From contig NZ_JACHWY010000002.1 of assembly GCF_014191715.1 (NCBI RefSeq), positions 620,001 to 684,000 of the forward strand: a stretch of DNA of 64,000 nucleotides, in the 5' to 3' direction. The stretch comes from Litorivivens lipolytica. Its GTDB lineage: Bacteria; Pseudomonadota; Gammaproteobacteria; Pseudomonadales; Spongiibacteraceae. The notes under the pieces are model-generated. The model ran no database searches, had not been told where the DNA came from, and was given only the letters and a program-made list of their open reading frames with translations. Made by a program: the position numbers and the translations under genes. Positions 32,977 through 39,867 of the stretch are shown one piece after another; the stretch's first letter is position 1, and each line of letters starts with the position of its first letter.

Positions 32977-35472
32977 ATGAAGTGGTTACGGCGATTGGCC
33001 TTTGTTTTTGTGCGGATTCTGCTGCGTCCAGTGCTGTGGGCCGTCAAACCGCAGGTCATTCCGGAAAACCTCGATGCCTTGCGTGAGCGCCTTCAGGGGC
33101 AGCCGGTCTGTTATGTTCTGCGCCAACACAGTTGGTCCGACCGCATTGTTCTGGAGCGGCTCTGTCGACAGCTGGATCTACCACTTATCACCACGCCTTC
33201 GGGAGATTTGCCCTCAATCGAGCGGGCAGCCTGCCTTTACTTGCCGGTGATTGCCGAGGTGGACGAGCAGAACTCACCGCAACAGTTGATTCAGTTAATT
33301 GCTGGAGCTGCGGAAGAGCACGATGTTGGCATTCAGTTTCTGCCGGTTTCCATTTTCTGGGGGCGTGACCCCGGCAGTGAAACCTCCATACTGAAACTGC
33401 TGGTGGGTGATGCCGAGTTTGCTGGCGGGCTGCGCAAGTTACTGATCATGTTGGTTCAGGGGCGCTCGGCGCTGGTGAATTTTGCCGACCCGGTCGACTT
33501 TGATTCCATTCTCGAGCGCCAGACCAATCACTTGCGCGCAGCAGAACTTCTGCATCGCGGCCTGTCGTTTCACTTTTTGCGGCAAAAAACCGCTACGCTG
33601 GGGCCGAGCCTGCTGTCGCGCCAGCACATGATTTATACGACGCTGCGACGACCACTGGTACAGCAAGCGCTGGACGAGGAGGTCCAAGAACAGAATATCA
33701 GTCGCGATCAAGCCTATAAGCGCGCCCGAAAAATGGCCAATGAGGTAGCGGCCAACTTTGACCCGCGCATGATCCGTTTTCTGGATATTGTACTGAGTTG
33801 GGTGTTCCGCAAAATTTTTAGTGGCGTGAAACCCTACAACGTAGATCGCCTGCGCTCGGTGGCAAACAAATACCATGTTATCTACATGCCGTCGCACCGC
33901 AGCCATCTGGATTATCTGCTGATTTCATGGACGCTCTACTATCAGGGCCTCGTGCCGCCGCACATAGCTGCCGGGGTAAACCTGAATTTCTGGCCCGTGG
34001 GCGGTTTGCTGCGTCGTGGCGGCGCTTTTTATATCCGTCGCAGTTTTGCCGGGCAGCAATTGTATTCGGCCATTTTCCGATCTTATCTGGATGTACTGTT
34101 GGGCCGCGGTTACCCGGTAGAGTTTTTTCCGGAAGGTGGTCGCAGCCGCACCGGTCGCTTGCTTCCGGCCAAGCGCGGCATGCTGAGCATGGTGGTGGAA
34201 AGCTTTCTGGCCCAGCCCAGTCGGGCCGCAGCGCTGGTGCCGGTTTATGTGGGCTATGACAAGCTGGTAGAAGGCGGCAGTTACGCCAAGGAGCTGCGCG
34301 GTGCGGGTAAAAAGAAAGAGTCCGCCGGTGAGCTGCTCAAGGCCCGTAAAATTTTCAAATCCTCTTACGGCAGCCCGCATGTTGCGTTTGGTGAACCCAT
34401 TATCTTGTCAGAGGCTTTAAACCGGCTTGAGCCTCAGTGGCGAAGCCGGTGGCAGGAGGGTGATAAAACCTGGTTGCCAGTGGCAATTGAACGTCTAGCG
34501 CGCATGAATATGGAGCGGGTGAACCAGTCCGCGGTAGTGAATCCCATCGGGTTGGTGTCTGCTATTCTTCTGGCCAGCCCGCAACGAGCGATGGCAGAAA
34601 ATGAACTGCTGGAACAGATCGAACGCTTTCTCGGTCTGATGCGAAAACTGCCCTATAGCCGTGACATCGTCTTGCCGGAACAGTCGGCTCCGGAAATCTT
34701 TGAAGCCGCCGCCCGCACCGCAGGTTTGTCGCGAATCGAACACGCGTGGGGACCGATTATCACCGTGACCGGTAACGAAGCGGTGATGCTGACCTACTAC
34801 CGCAATTCCGTCATGCATGTGCTGGCCCTGCCGTCACTGATCGCACGCTTTTTACGGCATACCGAATCCATAGAGGAAGAGTTGCTGGTGCAGCGCTGCG
34901 TGGGGCTTTATCCCTTCCTTAAGCGTGAGTTGTTTCTGCATTGGCCCGTTCGCGAAGCCGAAGAACGCGTGCGTGAACTGATTGGCGGTATGGTTGAGCT
35001 TGGCCTGTTGAAGCGTGATGGCAGTAAATTGAAGCGTCCGGAAATAGGTACGTCCGAATACAGTGCCGTGATTGGTCTTGGGCGGTTGCTGCGCGAAACC
35101 CTTGAGCGCTACACCATGTGCAGTCTGCTCCTTGTATACCAACTGAGTGAGCGTCCCACCCAGCGCCCGGCGATTGAGCAGCACATTATTTATATGGTGC
35201 AGCGACTGGCAATTCTTACCGGCCGTGAAGCGCCGGAATACTTCGATAAAACTCTGTTCCGAATCTACATTGATGCATTGGTGGATCAAGGGCTGCTCGA
35301 AGAAGAACGCGTCAACGATACGATTCTGTTGCGGGTAAATCCGCGTTTGCAGGAACTTGCGGAACAGTGGGTCTGGCTGCTGGGGCCTGCGGTACAGCAG
35401 GGTATGCAGCAATTGGTGCGCGATCCGCGCCTGTCACTGCAGGAACTGGAAAACGGTGAGAGCAAAGACTGA
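32977..35472 (+). CDS. plsB: glycerol-3-phosphate 1-O-acyltransferase PlsB
   Basis: An 831-residue PlsB, the inner-membrane enzyme that acylates sn-glycerol-3-phosphate, first step of phospholipid synthesis. The block I motif is MPSHRSHLDYLLISW, followed by RRGGAFYIRRSF and FPEGGRSRTGRLLPAKRG. The length is normal for gammaproteobacteria. AAAAGG precedes the ATG. It stands next to the phosphate-starvation lipid genes but is separated from them by the Pho boxes. A weak AGACT/AGTCT hairpin spans the stop codon. Confidence 0.96.
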   Translation: MKWLRRLAFVFVRILLRPVLWAVKPQVIPENLDALRERLQGQPVCYVLRQHSWSDRIVLERLCRQLDLPLITTPSGDLPSIERAACLYLPVIAEVDEQNSPQQLIQLIAGAAEEHDVGIQFLPVSIFWGRDPGSETSILKLLVGDAEFAGGLRKLLIMLVQGRSALVNFADPVDFDSILERQTNHLRAAELLHRGLSFHFLRQKTATLGPSLLSRQHMIYTTLRRPLVQQALDEEVQEQNISRDQAYKRARKMANEVAANFDPRMIRFLDIVLSWVFRKIFSGVKPYNVDRLRSVANKYHVIYMPSHRSHLDYLLISWTLYYQGLVPPHIAAGVNLNFWPVGGLLRRGGAFYIRRSFAGQQLYSAIFRSYLDVLLGRGYPVEFFPEGGRSRTGRLLPAKRGMLSMVVESFLAQPSRAAALVPVYVGYDKLVEGGSYAKELRGAGKKKESAGELLKARKIFKSSYGSPHVAFGEPIILSEALNRLEPQWRSRWQEGDKTWLPVAIERLARMNMERVNQSAVVNPIGLVSAILLASPQRAMAENELLEQIERFLGLMRKLPYSRDIVLPEQSAPEIFEAAARTAGLSRIEHAWGPIITVTGNEAVMLTYYRNSVMHVLALPSLIARFLRHTESIEEELLVQRCVGLYPFLKRELFLHWPVREAEERVRELIGGMVELGLLKRDGSKLKRPEIGTSEYSAVIGLGRLLRETLERYTMCSLLLVYQLSERPTQRPAIEQHIIYMVQRLAILTGREAPEYFDKTLFRIYIDALVDQGLLEEERVNDTILLRVNPRLQELAEQWVWLLGPAVQQGMQQLVRDPRLSLQELENGESKD

Positions 35473-35499: not shown

Positions 35500-35555
35500 C
35501 TGTCATAAAACTGTTGCACAACTGACTTTTGGCTGTCACCGCGGCTGGTTAGTCT
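35500..35555 (+). promoter_or_regulatory. tandem Pho boxes with -10, promoter of plcP-olsF
   Basis: Four 7-base direct repeats begin at 35500, 35511, 35522 and 35533 (CTGTCAT, CTGTTGC, CTGACTT, CTGTCAC), exactly 11 bases apart. This is the arrangement of PhoB boxes (consensus CTGTCAT, 11-base period). A TAGTCT -10 lies at 35550-35555, 10 bases after the last repeat, where a PhoB-activated promoter needs it. There is no -35 hexamer. Confidence 0.85.
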
Positions 35556-35585
35556 GGCTCCGTGTTAGAGCATGGAGCCAAACCC

Positions 35586-36407
35586 TTGAGTCCTCCACTA
35601 CTGCAATACAAGACAGTATGGTTGTCTGATATCCACCTCGGGTTCCGAGATTGCCGGGCCGATTATCTACTGGACTTTCTCAACAGCGTCGAATGCGAAA
35701 CCCTTTATCTGGTTGGCGATGTTGTTGACCTCTGGGCGCTGAAAAAACGCTTCTTCTGGCCCGCCGCGCACTATGACGTACTGCGCGCCATTCTGAAAAA
35801 ATCCCGTCATGGCACCCGCGTGGTTTACATTCCCGGTAACCACGACGAGCCCCTGCGTGACTACGTGGGTGAAACCGTCGGTGCCGTCGAGATTAAGCAC
35901 GAGGTCATTCACCAAACCGCGGATGGTCGCAAGCTGCTCGTGTTTCACGGCGATGTGCTCGACCCCCATATCCGGCTCAACAAACTGGAACATCTGGTGG
36001 GTGACGTCGCCTACGATTTTCTGCTGTTCCTGAATCGCTGGGGTAACGTTATCCGCAGCCGCCTTGGGTTGGGTTACTGGTCTCTTGCCACCTACATCAA
36101 AAAGCGCGTCAAAAATGCGCGTCAGGTCATTGATATCTACGAACAGGCTGCGGCGGAAGAAGCGATGCGCCGGGGGCTGGATGGCGTCGTCTGCGGCCAC
36201 ATTCACCAGCCGGGCATGCGCATGATCGATGGCATTGTGTACTGCAACGATGGCGACTGGATTGAAAGCTGCAGTGCACTCACCGAAACCGACAGTGGCG
36301 AGCTTCAACTTCTGCACTGGAGTGATCGGCAGCGCGTGTTGCGCGAATTTGATTCACAGGTAGACCTTCATCAGGCGGAAGTTATTCCGCTGCGCAAGGC
36401 AGGGTAG
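35586..36407 (+). CDS. plcP: PlcP-like metallophosphoesterase (phospholipid remodelling)
   Basis: A 273-residue calcineurin-like phosphoesterase of the COG2908 group. The metal-binding set is visible: SDIHLG, VGDVVDLW, GNHDE, FHGDVLD and the late CGHIHQPG plus NDGDWIES. The sequence plan fits PlcP, a manganese-dependent phospholipase C that removes head groups from phospholipids during phosphate starvation, better than LpxH. The Pho boxes upstream and the OlsF-like gene 8 bases downstream support this. The start is probably the TTG at 35586 (GGAG 8 bases before); a GTG at 35562 falls at the predicted transcription start. Confidence 0.83.
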   Translation: MSPPLLQYKTVWLSDIHLGFRDCRADYLLDFLNSVECETLYLVGDVVDLWALKKRFFWPAAHYDVLRAILKKSRHGTRVVYIPGNHDEPLRDYVGETVGAVEIKHEVIHQTADGRKLLVFHGDVLDPHIRLNKLEHLVGDVAYDFLLFLNRWGNVIRSRLGLGYWSLATYIKKRVKNARQVIDIYEQAAAEEAMRRGLDGVVCGHIHQPGMRMIDGIVYCNDGDWIESCSALTETDSGELQLLHWSDRQRVLREFDSQVDLHQAEVIPLRKAG

Positions 36408-36415
36408 GGTGTAGG

Positions 36416-38137
36416 ATGATCTGCGTCGATTCCGTTGTTAAAGAGCGTTTTCCCGCGATTGCGGAAAAACACCCACATATTCGCAGCACGCTGGTGACCC
36501 TGTTTCGCTATCTGTTTCATGAAAGTGAATTCAAACAGTTCGAGCGCGATTACCCTCACCTTGTCGGCATCGATTTTGTCGACAAGGCTTTGGAGTATTT
36601 TGACTTTGACTACAGCATCAAAGCCTGGGAGCGAGAACGGATTCCGGTAAGCGGCAAGGTGGTGATTGTGGCCAACCATCCAATTGGTAGCTTGGATGGG
36701 CTGGCACTACTGAAAATGCTGAGCGAAATCCGCCCGGATGTAAAAGTCGTCGCCAACGAGTTGCTCTACAGTCTCAAGCCCCTGCGCCCACTTTTATTGC
36801 CGGTCGATAATATGAACGGCAATACCCCCAAGCAGAATCTGAAGAATATTGAGGGCCATCTCAACGAAGGCGGCGCGCTGATTATTTTCCCGGCAGGGGA
36901 AGTGTCTCGACTGGGACCGACCGGTGTTAAAGACAGCCGCTGGCGCACCGGATTTCTGCGCTTTGCCAGCAAGACCTCGGCGCCGATTCTGCCAGTGCAT
37001 GTGAACGCAAGAAATTCCCTGTTTTTCTATGCGCTTTCCCTATTGGCCAAGCCGATCTCAACCCTCTGGCTGATTCGCGAGATGTTTAAGCAGCATCATC
37101 GCAGCGCGCGCCTGACGATCGGACCGATTGTGGAAACCGCCAGCTATGAATCCCTGCCGCTGACACCGCGCGCTAAGGCGCAGCTGTTTAGACGGCATGT
37201 GTACAAGTTGGGTGCTCGGCAACAGCGCGGCGAGAAACATTTCATGCCGCAGATGCAATCTGTGGCCCACCCGGAAGACCGCCGCTTGCTTCGACAAGCG
37301 CTACGATCCAGCGAAAGACTGGGAACAACCTGCGATGGTATGGAGATTTTTTGCTTTCGGGCCTCAGGCGATAGTGTGATTATGCGTGAGCTCGGTCGTT
37401 TGCGGGAAATCAGTTTCCGTGCGGTGGGGGAGGGCACCGGCAATCGCCGGGATACCGATATCTACGACACCTACTACGACCACATACTGCTGTGGGACGA
37501 TAATCAACTTGAGCTGGTAGGTGCGTACCGTCTTGCGCGCTGTGCGGCACTGAACGCTGACCAAACCTTGTACACGTCTACGTTATTTAACTTTTCTGAT
37601 CAGGCCGCGCCGTATCTGCAGCAGGGCGTGGAGCTGGGTAGAAGTTTTGTTCAGCCCCAATACTGGGGCAAAGCGGCGCTGGATTATCTTTGGCAAGGCG
37701 TCGGAGCTTACCTTTCCCGCTACCCGGATGTGCGCTATCTGTTCGGTCCGGTCAGTATCAGTAACGAACTGCCCTCTGGGGCGCGTGAACTGCTGGTTGA
37801 ATTTTACCGCAAGCATTTTCCGCCGGCGTCCGACTGGGCGATTGCGAAATTGCCTTACGCGCCGGGCACAGGGAATACCTTCGAAGGCAGAGACTACTCG
37901 CAGGAATTTATCGAGTTAAAAGCGCGACTGGCTGAGATGGGGGCTAGCGTTCCGCCTTTGTATAAACAGTATTCAGAGCTGTGCGAAACCGGTGGCGTAC
38001 AGTTTGCCGCCTACAATATTGACCCGGATTTTGCGGATTGCGTGGATGGTTTGGTGCTGGTGGATATCTCCAAAATGAAGCCCGCCCGCCGTAAGCGTTA
38101 TCTGGGCGCCTCAACGATAACGACAACTGCATCGTAA
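36416..38137 (+). CDS. olsF: OlsF-like bifunctional acyltransferase (aminolipid synthesis)
   Basis: A 573-residue fusion. The first half (to about residue 290) is a lysophospholipid-acyltransferase domain with VANHPIGSLDGLAL, FPAGEVSRLG and LPVHVNARN. The second half is a GNAT-like N-acyltransferase domain with RELGRLREISFRAVGEGTG, GAYRLARC and VELGRSFVQPQYWG. This OlsA-plus-OlsB order is that of OlsF, which makes ornithine-type phosphorus-free lipids. It lies directly behind plcP under the Pho boxes. Which amino acid is acylated cannot be told from sequence. Confidence 0.82.
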   Translation: MICVDSVVKERFPAIAEKHPHIRSTLVTLFRYLFHESEFKQFERDYPHLVGIDFVDKALEYFDFDYSIKAWERERIPVSGKVVIVANHPIGSLDGLALLKMLSEIRPDVKVVANELLYSLKPLRPLLLPVDNMNGNTPKQNLKNIEGHLNEGGALIIFPAGEVSRLGPTGVKDSRWRTGFLRFASKTSAPILPVHVNARNSLFFYALSLLAKPISTLWLIREMFKQHHRSARLTIGPIVETASYESLPLTPRAKAQLFRRHVYKLGARQQRGEKHFMPQMQSVAHPEDRRLLRQALRSSERLGTTCDGMEIFCFRASGDSVIMRELGRLREISFRAVGEGTGNRRDTDIYDTYYDHILLWDDNQLELVGAYRLARCAALNADQTLYTSTLFNFSDQAAPYLQQGVELGRSFVQPQYWGKAALDYLWQGVGAYLSRYPDVRYLFGPVSISNELPSGARELLVEFYRKHFPPASDWAIAKLPYAPGTGNTFEGRDYSQEFIELKARLAEMGASVPPLYKQYSELCETGGVQFAAYNIDPDFADCVDGLVLVDISKMKPARRKRYLGASTITTTAS

Positions 38138-38239: not shown

Positions 38240-39268
38240 TCAGGCCAGCCGGGTTTTCTTCCAGAGGTCTTTGCTGAGCGACTCGGTATTGTGCCATTCA
38301 CCGGATAGAACCCAATCTACCAGTGCTGCAGCAACGTCGGGGTAGGTCACGGGTGTGCGCACTGGGAGCGCATTTAACCAGTTCGCTATTGGTTTATGTT
38401 CCAGGCTGTGCAGGATATCGGCGTAGTTCAGTTGCGACAAAGCCATTGCGTTCGCGATCTGTTCGCCTTGCCCTGTCACCGGTTTGGCCAGCACGGCCTT
38501 GCCCAGATAGAGGCATTCGCTGATCAGTTCGAAACCGGCATTGCAGATGACGGCGCGGCTGGACTGCAGATCTTGTTTGAAACCAGCAAGGCTGGTTTTG
38601 CGGGTGTCGACATTGTCGTCCCGCCCATCGACAAGATCCGGTGAATACTGAATAAAACGGGTGTCGGGTATCTGTTTCAGCAAGCGGGTAACGCGGCTCT
38701 GATCCTCGAAGGGCAGATAGACAAGCACGCTGTTACCGACTCGACTGGAAACGGCGGGATTAATGATGGGCGGTACAATGGGCCCACCGAAGTCCGACCA
38801 GTGCAGACCGAGCCCGGTGGTCACAGGCGCAAAACAGCGCAGTATGAATCGGCTCAGAATGTCACCCTTGCTGCGCGGAACACCGGGATGGTGGAAGGCG
38901 TACTGATGACCAATACCAATTACCGGACGGTTTTGCAGTTTGCCCGCCCAGGCGGTGATCGGCTCAAAGTCGGTGAGGATAACGTCGTACCCGGACACAT
39001 CCAGTTCACGAATTTCCTGCAGAAAGCGTATCGGGTGACTTTGCGCGACGGTGCGCAGGTAGCTGATAGAGCCCTGATGGCTGACGAAGCTGAGGCCGGT
39101 GCGAGTTTGGTAGTGGCCGAAGCACTCCATATCAAAGTAGCGCTCGGGCGCACGCCCCGAGAATAGAAAGTCGACCTGAACGCCGCGCCGAGTGAAGTGG
39201 CTGGCCATCATACGGGCACGGCTGACGTGGCCGTTGCCGGTGCCTTGCACGCCGTAGAGAATCTTCAT
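38240..39268 (-). CDS. MJ1255/VC2487-type glycosyltransferase
   Basis: A 342-residue GT-B-fold glycosyltransferase. The N-terminus MKILYGVQGTGNGHVSRAR and the C-terminal donor-site region ICNAGFELISECLYLGKAVL fit the MJ1255/VC2487 group, relatives of the GT28 enzymes that include MurG and galactolipid synthases. Its start overlaps the stop of the PAP2 gene (ATGA), so the pair is one transcript. That transcript has Pho-box repeats in front. Glycosylation of diacylglycerol during phosphate starvation is a reasonable inference; the acceptor is not known. Confidence 0.82.
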   Translation of the reverse strand: MKILYGVQGTGNGHVSRARMMASHFTRRGVQVDFLFSGRAPERYFDMECFGHYQTRTGLSFVSHQGSISYLRTVAQSHPIRFLQEIRELDVSGYDVILTDFEPITAWAGKLQNRPVIGIGHQYAFHHPGVPRSKGDILSRFILRCFAPVTTGLGLHWSDFGGPIVPPIINPAVSSRVGNSVLVYLPFEDQSRVTRLLKQIPDTRFIQYSPDLVDGRDDNVDTRKTSLAGFKQDLQSSRAVICNAGFELISECLYLGKAVLAKPVTGQGEQIANAMALSQLNYADILHSLEHKPIANWLNALPVRTPVTYPDVAAALVDWVLSGEWHNTESLSKDLWKKTRLA

Positions 39269-39792
39269 ATCACAACGATACTGAAGCTCGCATAGGCCAG
39301 CGTTGCACCGAGTGTGGCGCCCGCCAGAATATCGGTTGGGAAGTGAACCCCGAGAATCACGCGCGAGGCGCCGACCATCGCTGCCCAGATCATCAAGGGC
39401 AGGGCGACCAGTCCAAAGCTCAGGTAGACCAGTGTGGCCAACATCACCGCAGCTGCGGTGTGTCCGGAGGGAAAGCTGAACTTGTCCGACGCGGTGATAA
39501 CACTGGAGAAACTGGGTATGGCTTCAGGTGGTCGGCGTCGCTGAAAACTGTTTTTCAGCACCCAATACAGTGGCAGCTCGATAGCAAAGGCCAGTAAAGT
39601 AGCCAGCAGAAGGTGCTGTCCTGCTTCCCCAGCGATCAGGGCGAGCCCGACAGGGATAAGAATTTGAAGATAACCGTCGCCGCTGCGGGAAACCTGCTTC
39701 GCGGTTTTGGCCAGCACGCTCTGGTGGCGACTGTTGACACACCAGAGGAACATGCGCGTATCGTATTGAGTAAGTGTCGTAAGTATCTGCAT
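39265..39792 (-). CDS. PAP2-family membrane phosphatase
   Basis: A 175-residue polytopic protein with the three PAP2 phosphatase motifs: KNSFQRRRPPEA, FPSGHTAAA and SRVILGVHFPTD. Such enzymes dephosphorylate lipid phosphates such as phosphatidate or undecaprenyl pyrophosphate. AGGAG precedes the ATG. As first gene of a Pho-box-led operon with a glycosyltransferase, it may supply diacylglycerol from phosphatidate, releasing phosphate as well. Confidence 0.9.
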   Translation of the reverse strand: MQILTTLTQYDTRMFLWCVNSRHQSVLAKTAKQVSRSGDGYLQILIPVGLALIAGEAGQHLLLATLLAFAIELPLYWVLKNSFQRRRPPEAIPSFSSVITASDKFSFPSGHTAAAVMLATLVYLSFGLVALPLMIWAAMVGASRVILGVHFPTDILAGATLGATLAYASFSIVVI

Positions 39793-39838
39793 AGTGTTCT
39801 CCTGACTATGCAGTCTGTGCCTGATGCGTGTACTAACT

Positions 39839-39867
39839 GTGACAGTATTGTGATTTTTTTATGACAG
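39839..39867 (-). promoter_or_regulatory. Pho-box array upstream of the PAP2-glycosyltransferase operon
   Basis: Read on the minus strand, CTGTCAT (39867-39861), AAATCAC (39856-39850) and CTGTCAC (39845-39839) follow each other with an exact 11-base period and AT-rich 4-base spacers. The outer repeats match the PhoB consensus at all or all but one position; the middle one is degenerate. The array ends 46 bases before the PAP2 start. Confidence 0.62.

Follow-up and report, generated by a model that had tools for sequence, protein, structure and literature searches.

We analysed a 64,000-nucleotide stretch of the genome of Litorivivens lipolytica (Spongiibacteraceae, Pseudomonadales), positions 620,001 to 684,000 of contig NZ_JACHWY010000002.1, referred to below as the window. 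It carries two adjacent genes, plcP and olsF, which encode a phospholipase C-type metallophosphoesterase and a fused acyltransferase and lie behind a Pho box, and a convergent pair of genes for a PAP2-family phosphatase and a glycosyltransferase (GT), the PAP2-GT pair (Table 1). The promoter motif and its conservation, the gene families and the operon layout come directly out of the computation; plcP-olsF is very probably a PhoB-activated two-gene operon that would replace membrane phospholipids under phosphate shortage, and the neighbouring sugar-transferase operon appears to take part in the same low-phosphate response. An earlier interpretation made from the letters of this DNA, hereafter the sequence-only reading, had described the first two genes and their promoter; the PAP2-GT pair, with a Pho-box-like promoter of its own, is absent from it. 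Published work is cited by PMC identifier for the passages of text concerned.

Table 1. Features of the plcP-olsF locus and its surroundings (window coordinates).
Feature	Position	Strand	Basis or remark
plsB	32977..35472	+	Upstream of plcP, not counted in the operon
Pho box, four 7-mers at 11-base spacing	35500..35539	+	Sequence, shuffles, PhoB matrix
-10-like hexamer TAGTCT, 10 bases past the Pho box	35550..35555	+	19 of 21 family loci have TAnnnT here
plcP, phospholipase C-type metallophosphoesterase	35586..36407	+	TTG start proposed; GTG 35562 gives a longer open reading frame
olsF, fused O-acyltransferase and N-acyltransferase, predicted ornithine lipid synthase	36416..38137	+	NF052615, PF19576, PF13444
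MJ1255/VC2487-family glycosyltransferase, candidate lipid glycosyltransferase	38240..39268	-	TIGR00661; overlaps the PAP2 gene
PAP2-family phosphatase	39265..39792	-	Three catalytic motifs
Second, weaker Pho-box-like tandem 5' of PAP2-GT	39828..39867	-	+10 hexamer CAGACT, not TAnnnT

The Pho box of plcP and its conservation

The four 7-mers upstream of plcP, CTGTCAT (35500), CTGTTGC (35511), CTGACTT (35522) and CTGTCAC (35533), match CTGTCAT in 22 of 28 letters, a value that 200 first-order shuffles of this upstream sequence never attained. A PhoB-type box thereby stands at activating distance from a -10 element, where the layout of the box and its ten-base gap to the -10 are those we take to be typical. 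The site was scored with a PhoB weight matrix, as the sequence-only reading had proposed. This matrix was derived from the phoA, phoB, phoE, pstS, ugpB, phnC and phoH promoters of E. coli K-12, all PhoB targets, using for each gene the best match in the 250 bases 5' of it, refined by iteration, rather than footprints. The 18-mer at 35500 ranks first of 127,966 window positions and the tandem 40-mer at the same place first of 127,922, with a score of 20.97 against 10.25 for the runner-up. As a control of the matrix, the P. aeruginosa plcP promoter, which is reported to bear a Pho box (PMC8528852), scores 12.2, the best value in its 8.7 kb.

Across the 3.49-Mb genome, a three-repeat Pho pattern, drawn up after inspection of the family loci, fits without mismatch at the plcP site only; the other 20 matches carry 3 mismatches, and the reversed pattern, used as a control, gave 17 matches. 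A generic sigma-70 scan of the region (2 matches, 2.6 expected) did not match the plcP promoter, which might be a trait of an activator-dependent promoter, and a general repeat search of the window did not pick up the four-repeat array. The plcP Pho array is confirmed, with the exact 11-base spacing and the well-placed -10 element that the sequence-only reading had described.

We then considered a family set made of the host's own genome and 20 relatives (21 plcP loci). The four-step array was found 5' of plcP in all 21, and none was equalled by 200 shuffles each. With the same matrix, a tandem score of at least 10.2, a threshold set by the window's own PAP2-GT site, was reached at 19 of the 21 loci, and TAnnnT at +10 is as frequent; the two low-scoring loci (L019 and L022) are both still above all 200 shuffles. 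Moreover, the genome encodes PhoB (341.5 bits; equivalog cut-off 296.2), in a row with a kinase-like open reading frame and PstS, and Pho-like boxes precede both phoB and pstS.

The two enzymes and the recurrence of their linkage

For plcP, the TTG at 35586 is a likelier start than the listed GTG at 35562, because the GTG sits about where the transcript should begin and a GGAG (35574-35577) lies eight bases 5' of the TTG; the product would then have 273 residues. Proteins of this kind are publicly annotated as UDP-2,3-diacylglucosamine diphosphatase, and LpxH is the nearest solved fold to the structure model (predicted local distance difference test, pLDDT, 83.6), as would be expected for a relative of LpxH. 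These two points would suit an LpxH-type lipid A enzyme, or some other metallophosphoesterase merely placed before olsF, yet we hold this to be highly improbable. The LpxH models score 38.9 bits (cut-off 190.35) and 42.4 bits (cut-off 134) on the window protein, both short of equivalog level, and a separate LpxH equivalog (309.9 bits) is encoded elsewhere in the host genome. In a 77-row maximum-likelihood tree (23 of 80 named loci, 42 PlcPs from further genomes, the window protein, three plasmid-collection PlcPs and eight LpxH, that of E. coli among them), the window protein and the PlcPs of S. meliloti and P. aeruginosa are split from the eight LpxH with 100/100 support and a branch of 2.93. 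The window protein is 42% and 49% identical to the S. meliloti and P. aeruginosa PlcPs, respectively, against 21-25% to three LpxH rows, and its metallophosphoesterase motifs are those of PlcPs (GNHDE, YWS and a GDWVESC type), where LpxH has GNRDF/GHTHRP. On the cut-offs, the separate genomic LpxH, the tree and the motifs, an LpxH identity for the first gene was rejected, and the PlcP-like phosphoesterase of the sequence-only reading holds, as does its expectation that the tree would not place the protein with LpxH.

The S. meliloti row was assigned from its LuxR and acyl-homoserine-lactone-synthase neighbours, presumably sinR and sinI, to the locus we take to be SMc00171; its 3.7-Mb record (L172) is labelled plasmid pSymB, and the size suggests a mislabelled chromosome. 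The P. aeruginosa PlcP clusters with PlcPs of two genomes of the order and is followed by a glycosyltransferase gene, in agreement with PA3219-PA3218 (PMC8528852). A plcP-agt pair was also seen on a 96-kb record labelled plasmid in P. aeruginosa HPA0698 (L173). Among the 25 PlcP homologues listed from plasmid records (H1-H25), 20 are annotated as UDP-2,3-diacylglucosamine diphosphatase and in the other five no feature is annotated where the match lies; this label conceals PlcP homologues in name-based surveys.

The second gene, called an OlsF-like fusion acyltransferase from the letters, indeed passes the OlsF equivalog cut-off (804.8 bits with NCBIfam NF052615; cut-off 620) and has both domains. 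The glycine-lipid models GlsA (161.8; cut-off 260) and GlsB (157.9; cut-off 300) stay under theirs, so that ornithine is the best guess for the head group. The gene ends are as claimed: the plcP stop codon (36405-36407) and the olsF ATG (36416) are separated by 8 bases.

The two genes are adjacent in all 21 family genomes. Among 293 sampled genomes of the order, PlcP was found in 111, OlsF in 77 and both in 57. The OlsF set comprises 74 genomes above the cut-off and three partial matches (G071, G104 and G200), other sub-cut-off matches being dropped from the 129 genomes with some match. In 27 of the 57 genomes having both, 11-122 aligned bases separate plcP from the start of olsF downstream of it (one of them, G070, has a partial PlcP match); 13 of these belong to the host's family and 14 to eight other families, nine in all. 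The remaining 30 comprise one with the reverse order (G059), one with the PAP2-GT pair between plcP and olsF (G037) and 28 in which the genes lie apart. Furthermore, olsF directly follows plcP in 6 of the 80 named loci (Alteromonas portus, Alteromonas KUL42, Alteromonas IB21, an uncultured Thalassotalea and two Alteromonadaceae). On the PlcP tree, at least 8 changes of the linkage label are required, and the linkage has therefore been gained or lost repeatedly. plcP-olsF is a recurrent gammaproteobacterial arrangement: the sequence-only reading was right that both functions are joined in one operon in this lineage, and, as nine of the order's families show the adjacency and so do six named loci from Alteromonas and relatives, this is not peculiar to it. 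plsB was rejected as a member of the operon, since the Pho promoter intervenes and plsB is directly 5' of plcP in 3 of the 21 family loci only; in three further stretches from the family it lies 1.5-2.7 kb away on the 5' side.

The convergent PAP2-glycosyltransferase pair

On the opposite strand, the PAP2-GT pair (38240-39792) converges on olsF, and further families of the order, as well as Aeromonas, have such a pair. The phosphatase carries all three PAP2 catalytic motifs, and the GT exceeds the cut-off of its family model (222.3 vs 195.9 bits). The tandem in the promoter of the pair ranks second of 127,922 in the window with the PhoB matrix. To this site we added 28 others, chosen from two sets of 20 chosen, not random, stretches (L105 and L123, without PAP2 beside the GT, were excluded). 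A tandem of at least 10.2 is present in 24 of these 29 promoters, namely in all 15 of the family and in 9 of the 14 others, those below being L076, L080, L201, L203 and L208, and TAnnnT stands at +10 in 20 (12 of 15 and 8 of 14). Control upstream regions reached this score in 0 of 28 cases (PlsB, SthA, MT, ThlA, MFS and GT) and in 1 of 16 for OlsF.

The GT has a match in 111 of the 293 genomes of the order; the set used for counting holds 107 of them, with the weak-only matches of G127, G197, G217 and G236, and also second copies in G082 and G103, left out. By raw counts, which ignore kinship, it is present in 70 of the 77 OlsF genomes vs 37 of the 216 others. Outside the family, its distance to plcP is 20 kb or less in 9 of 54 genomes, and that to olsF in 7 of 57, where by our estimate from genome size about one in a hundred is expected by chance; in four non-family genomes (G037, G110, G140 and G151) the GT is at most 130 bases from plcP. 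In one family genome it lies 16-18 kb off.

In Aeromonas caviae, a Pho site scoring 29.3, followed by TAGTCT at +10, belongs to the PAP2-GT pair, the next best in the 7-kb stretch scoring 2.1; the same record holds an OlsF gene with a weaker Pho site (8.2) and no PlcP at E 1e-5. This 4.9-Mb record (L210) is labelled plasmid, and its size suggests a mislabelled chromosome. In two Nitrosomonas loci, the GT gene lies one gene after plcP with its own Pho box and TAAACT at +10, and the OlsF gene about 3 kb from plcP; at L105 a patatin-like gene separates plcP from the GT gene, which is followed by a lipid kinase gene. The patatin-like gene (L105:6877-7791) matches a phospholipase model of cyclic-oligonucleotide-based antiphage signalling systems (CBASS) below its cut-off (130.8 of 200 bits). 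In a related genus, zinc-carboxypeptidase-like and alpha/beta-hydrolase genes follow the GT (L072:10335-12294), and genes of the same Pfam families lie beside the Nitrosomonas plcP (L105:4000-5771).

Overall, the PAP2-GT pair is likely a lipid module of the Pho regulon. The structure model of the GT is weak (pLDDT 62.2) and finds GT-B-like folds only, among enzymes with quite different acceptors, so that no acceptor was named from it. MurG is one of the many enzymes it resembles, and the PAP2 protein obtains 62.8 bits with an undecaprenyl-diphosphatase model, below the cut-off of 250. The pair could instead save phosphate by trimming and decorating lipid A or glycans linked to undecaprenyl, with no role in diacylglycerol use; the linkage of the GT to plcP and olsF, down to 130 bases or less from plcP in four genomes, argues against this, and we consider it rather unlikely.

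In the literature searched, no paper was found for MJ1255 together with glycosyltransferase, and one for VC2487, in which it is named only as a putative glycosyltransferase with a chromatin immunoprecipitation peak upstream; among the titles listed by wider searches there was no paper on a PAP2-glycosyltransferase pair.

Lipid replacement and the outlet for diacylglycerol

We propose that, when phosphate is short, PhoB would bind the four-repeat box and start transcription at the -10 element. PlcP would then cleave the head-group phosphates from phospholipids, yielding diacylglycerol and phosphorus for reuse, and OlsF would supply the membrane with acyl-amino-acid lipids free of phosphorus, which are most likely ornithine lipids. 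Co-expression would couple the removal of phospholipids with their replacement and leave diacylglycerol for use. OlsF uses acyl-acyl carrier protein and an amino acid, and PlcP makes diacylglycerol; since they share no intermediate, plcP-olsF alone is not a complete switch and the diacylglycerol needs another outlet. Of the compact lipid-replacement switch claimed by the sequence-only reading, PlcP and OlsF under a Pho box remain, but the operon by itself does not complete it, as diacylglycerol is left over.

Several observations weigh against this mechanism or its generality. In the window, the PhoB matrix places the 18-mers at 35511 and 35522 no higher than ranks 177 and 193, and the plain 18-base consensus CTGTCATNNNNCTGTCAT shows no enrichment when up to 3 mismatches are allowed (7 matches vs 4.07 expected, a count equalled in 11 of 100 shuffles); the case for the Pho box is therefore made by the four-repeat layout, the first 18-mer with its matrix score and the conservation. 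The best 18-mers at the host phoB and pstS (9.91 and 8.35) score below the plcP site. Beyond the family the box is less regular: among 44 plcP loci of the order, 30 reach 10.2, 27 have TAnnnT at +10 and 22 have box and TAnnnT together, and 6 reach 10.2 among the 12 listed of the 80 named plcP promoters. Just one of the six named plcP-olsF loci (L099) passes 10.2, its box lying 203 bases from plcP; three Alteromonas plcP-olsF loci have weaker repeats with TATAGT at +10. The window PlcP belongs to a gammaproteobacterial subclade beside, not within, that of both reference PlcPs, and its substrate is therefore one that we infer. More generally, we infer both enzyme activities, the ornithine head group and the low-phosphate induction from the families concerned. 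OlsF homologues elsewhere have been speculated to make lysine lipids (PMC11631085), so the family name leaves the amino acid unfixed. Lastly, olsF abundance in marine metagenomes did not follow the nitrogen-phosphate measure used (PMC6298996).

There are published accounts of Pho control of PlcP, of PhoB-dependent OlsF and of PhoBR acting on PlcP together with OlsA/OlsB. Operons of the PlcP-Agt or PlcP-BtaAB type are described in Phaeobacter MED193, SAR11 and P. aeruginosa (PMC4796936; PMC8528852), and PlcP is also characterised in S. meliloti. As in these operons, a PlcP homologue comes first behind a Pho box and a gene for a phosphorus-free lipid comes next, but here olsF stands in place of agt or btaAB, in a host in which no clear Agt (by one query) or BtaA was found. 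The main text of PMC4796936, its supplementary table aside, distinguishes six kinds of plcP context, and olsF is named for none of them. In Vibrio cholerae, OlsF (VC0489) is PhoB-dependent in low phosphate (PMC12186959), which resembles the present olsF behind its predicted Pho promoter; PlcP is unmentioned in the main text of that paper, whereas here both genes share one Pho promoter. In Pseudomonas putida BIRD-1, proteins of phospholipid breakdown and ornithine lipid synthesis (PlcP, OlsA/OlsB) are likewise PhoBR-dependent (PMC5082522), but its plcP and olsAB loci are distant (1390 vs 974-975) and OlsB and OlsA are two proteins, unlike the fused OlsF of the plcP operon. A cultured Microbulbifer is reported to have an aminolipid beside phosphatidylethanolamine and phosphatidylglycerol (PMC12472934). 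No statement of a joint plcP-olsF operon was found in the passages of literature searched, supplements and subscription papers lying outside this scope.

In bacteria with plcP-agt or plcP-btaAB, the outlet for diacylglycerol is a glycolipid or a betaine lipid (PMC4796936). A search of the host genome with a single protein, P. aeruginosa Agt1, gave no clear Agt (at best E 2.2e-4 over 116 residues), and the BtaA family had no match at E 0.001. As neither of the outlets searched was clearly found, the PAP2-GT pair may, judging from its gene families, take up the diacylglycerol released by PlcP. The full module could then comprise plcP-olsF and PAP2-GT, an extension and not a contradiction of the operon described above, in which PAP2 and PlcP would supply diacylglycerol and the GT would make a phosphorus-free glycolipid in place of Agt. 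The second-best tandem Pho site of the window, the Pho sites and +10 hexamers of the PAP2-GT promoters against their controls, the proximity to plcP and olsF outside the family, the co-occurrence with OlsF, the Aeromonas and Nitrosomonas loci and the missing Agt and BtaA speak for it. On the other side, the GT model is weak and its fold common to GT-B enzymes of quite different acceptors; the threshold derives from the window's own site, where CAGACT stands at +10; five of the 29 promoters, at chosen loci, fail, and the co-occurrence ignores kinship; the GT is 16-18 kb off in one family genome, and the Agt search used one query protein. We give the four-gene module somewhat less than even weight. 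For V. cholerae, a low-phosphate lipid study used databases that identified only phospholipids and ornithine lipids (PMC13157583), so that a glycolipid is neither supported nor excluded there.

We tentatively suggest that the MJ1255/VC2487 glycosyltransferase family, often paired with PAP2, may be a widespread proteobacterial, PhoB-regulated route to a phosphorus-free glycolipid, acting in place of Agt beside OlsF and beside PlcP where that is present, and that the four genes here may form one module of two operons. The plcP-olsF pair would join phospholipid breakdown to aminolipid synthesis by operon, which adds to the known plcP-agt and plcP-btaAB types. Because this arrangement is recurrent, plcP alone is unfit as a metagenome marker for glycolipids or betaine lipids. 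Moreover, the PAP2-GT evidence suggests what a common but uncharacterised family of glycosyltransferases, matched in 111 of 293 genomes of the order, probably does.

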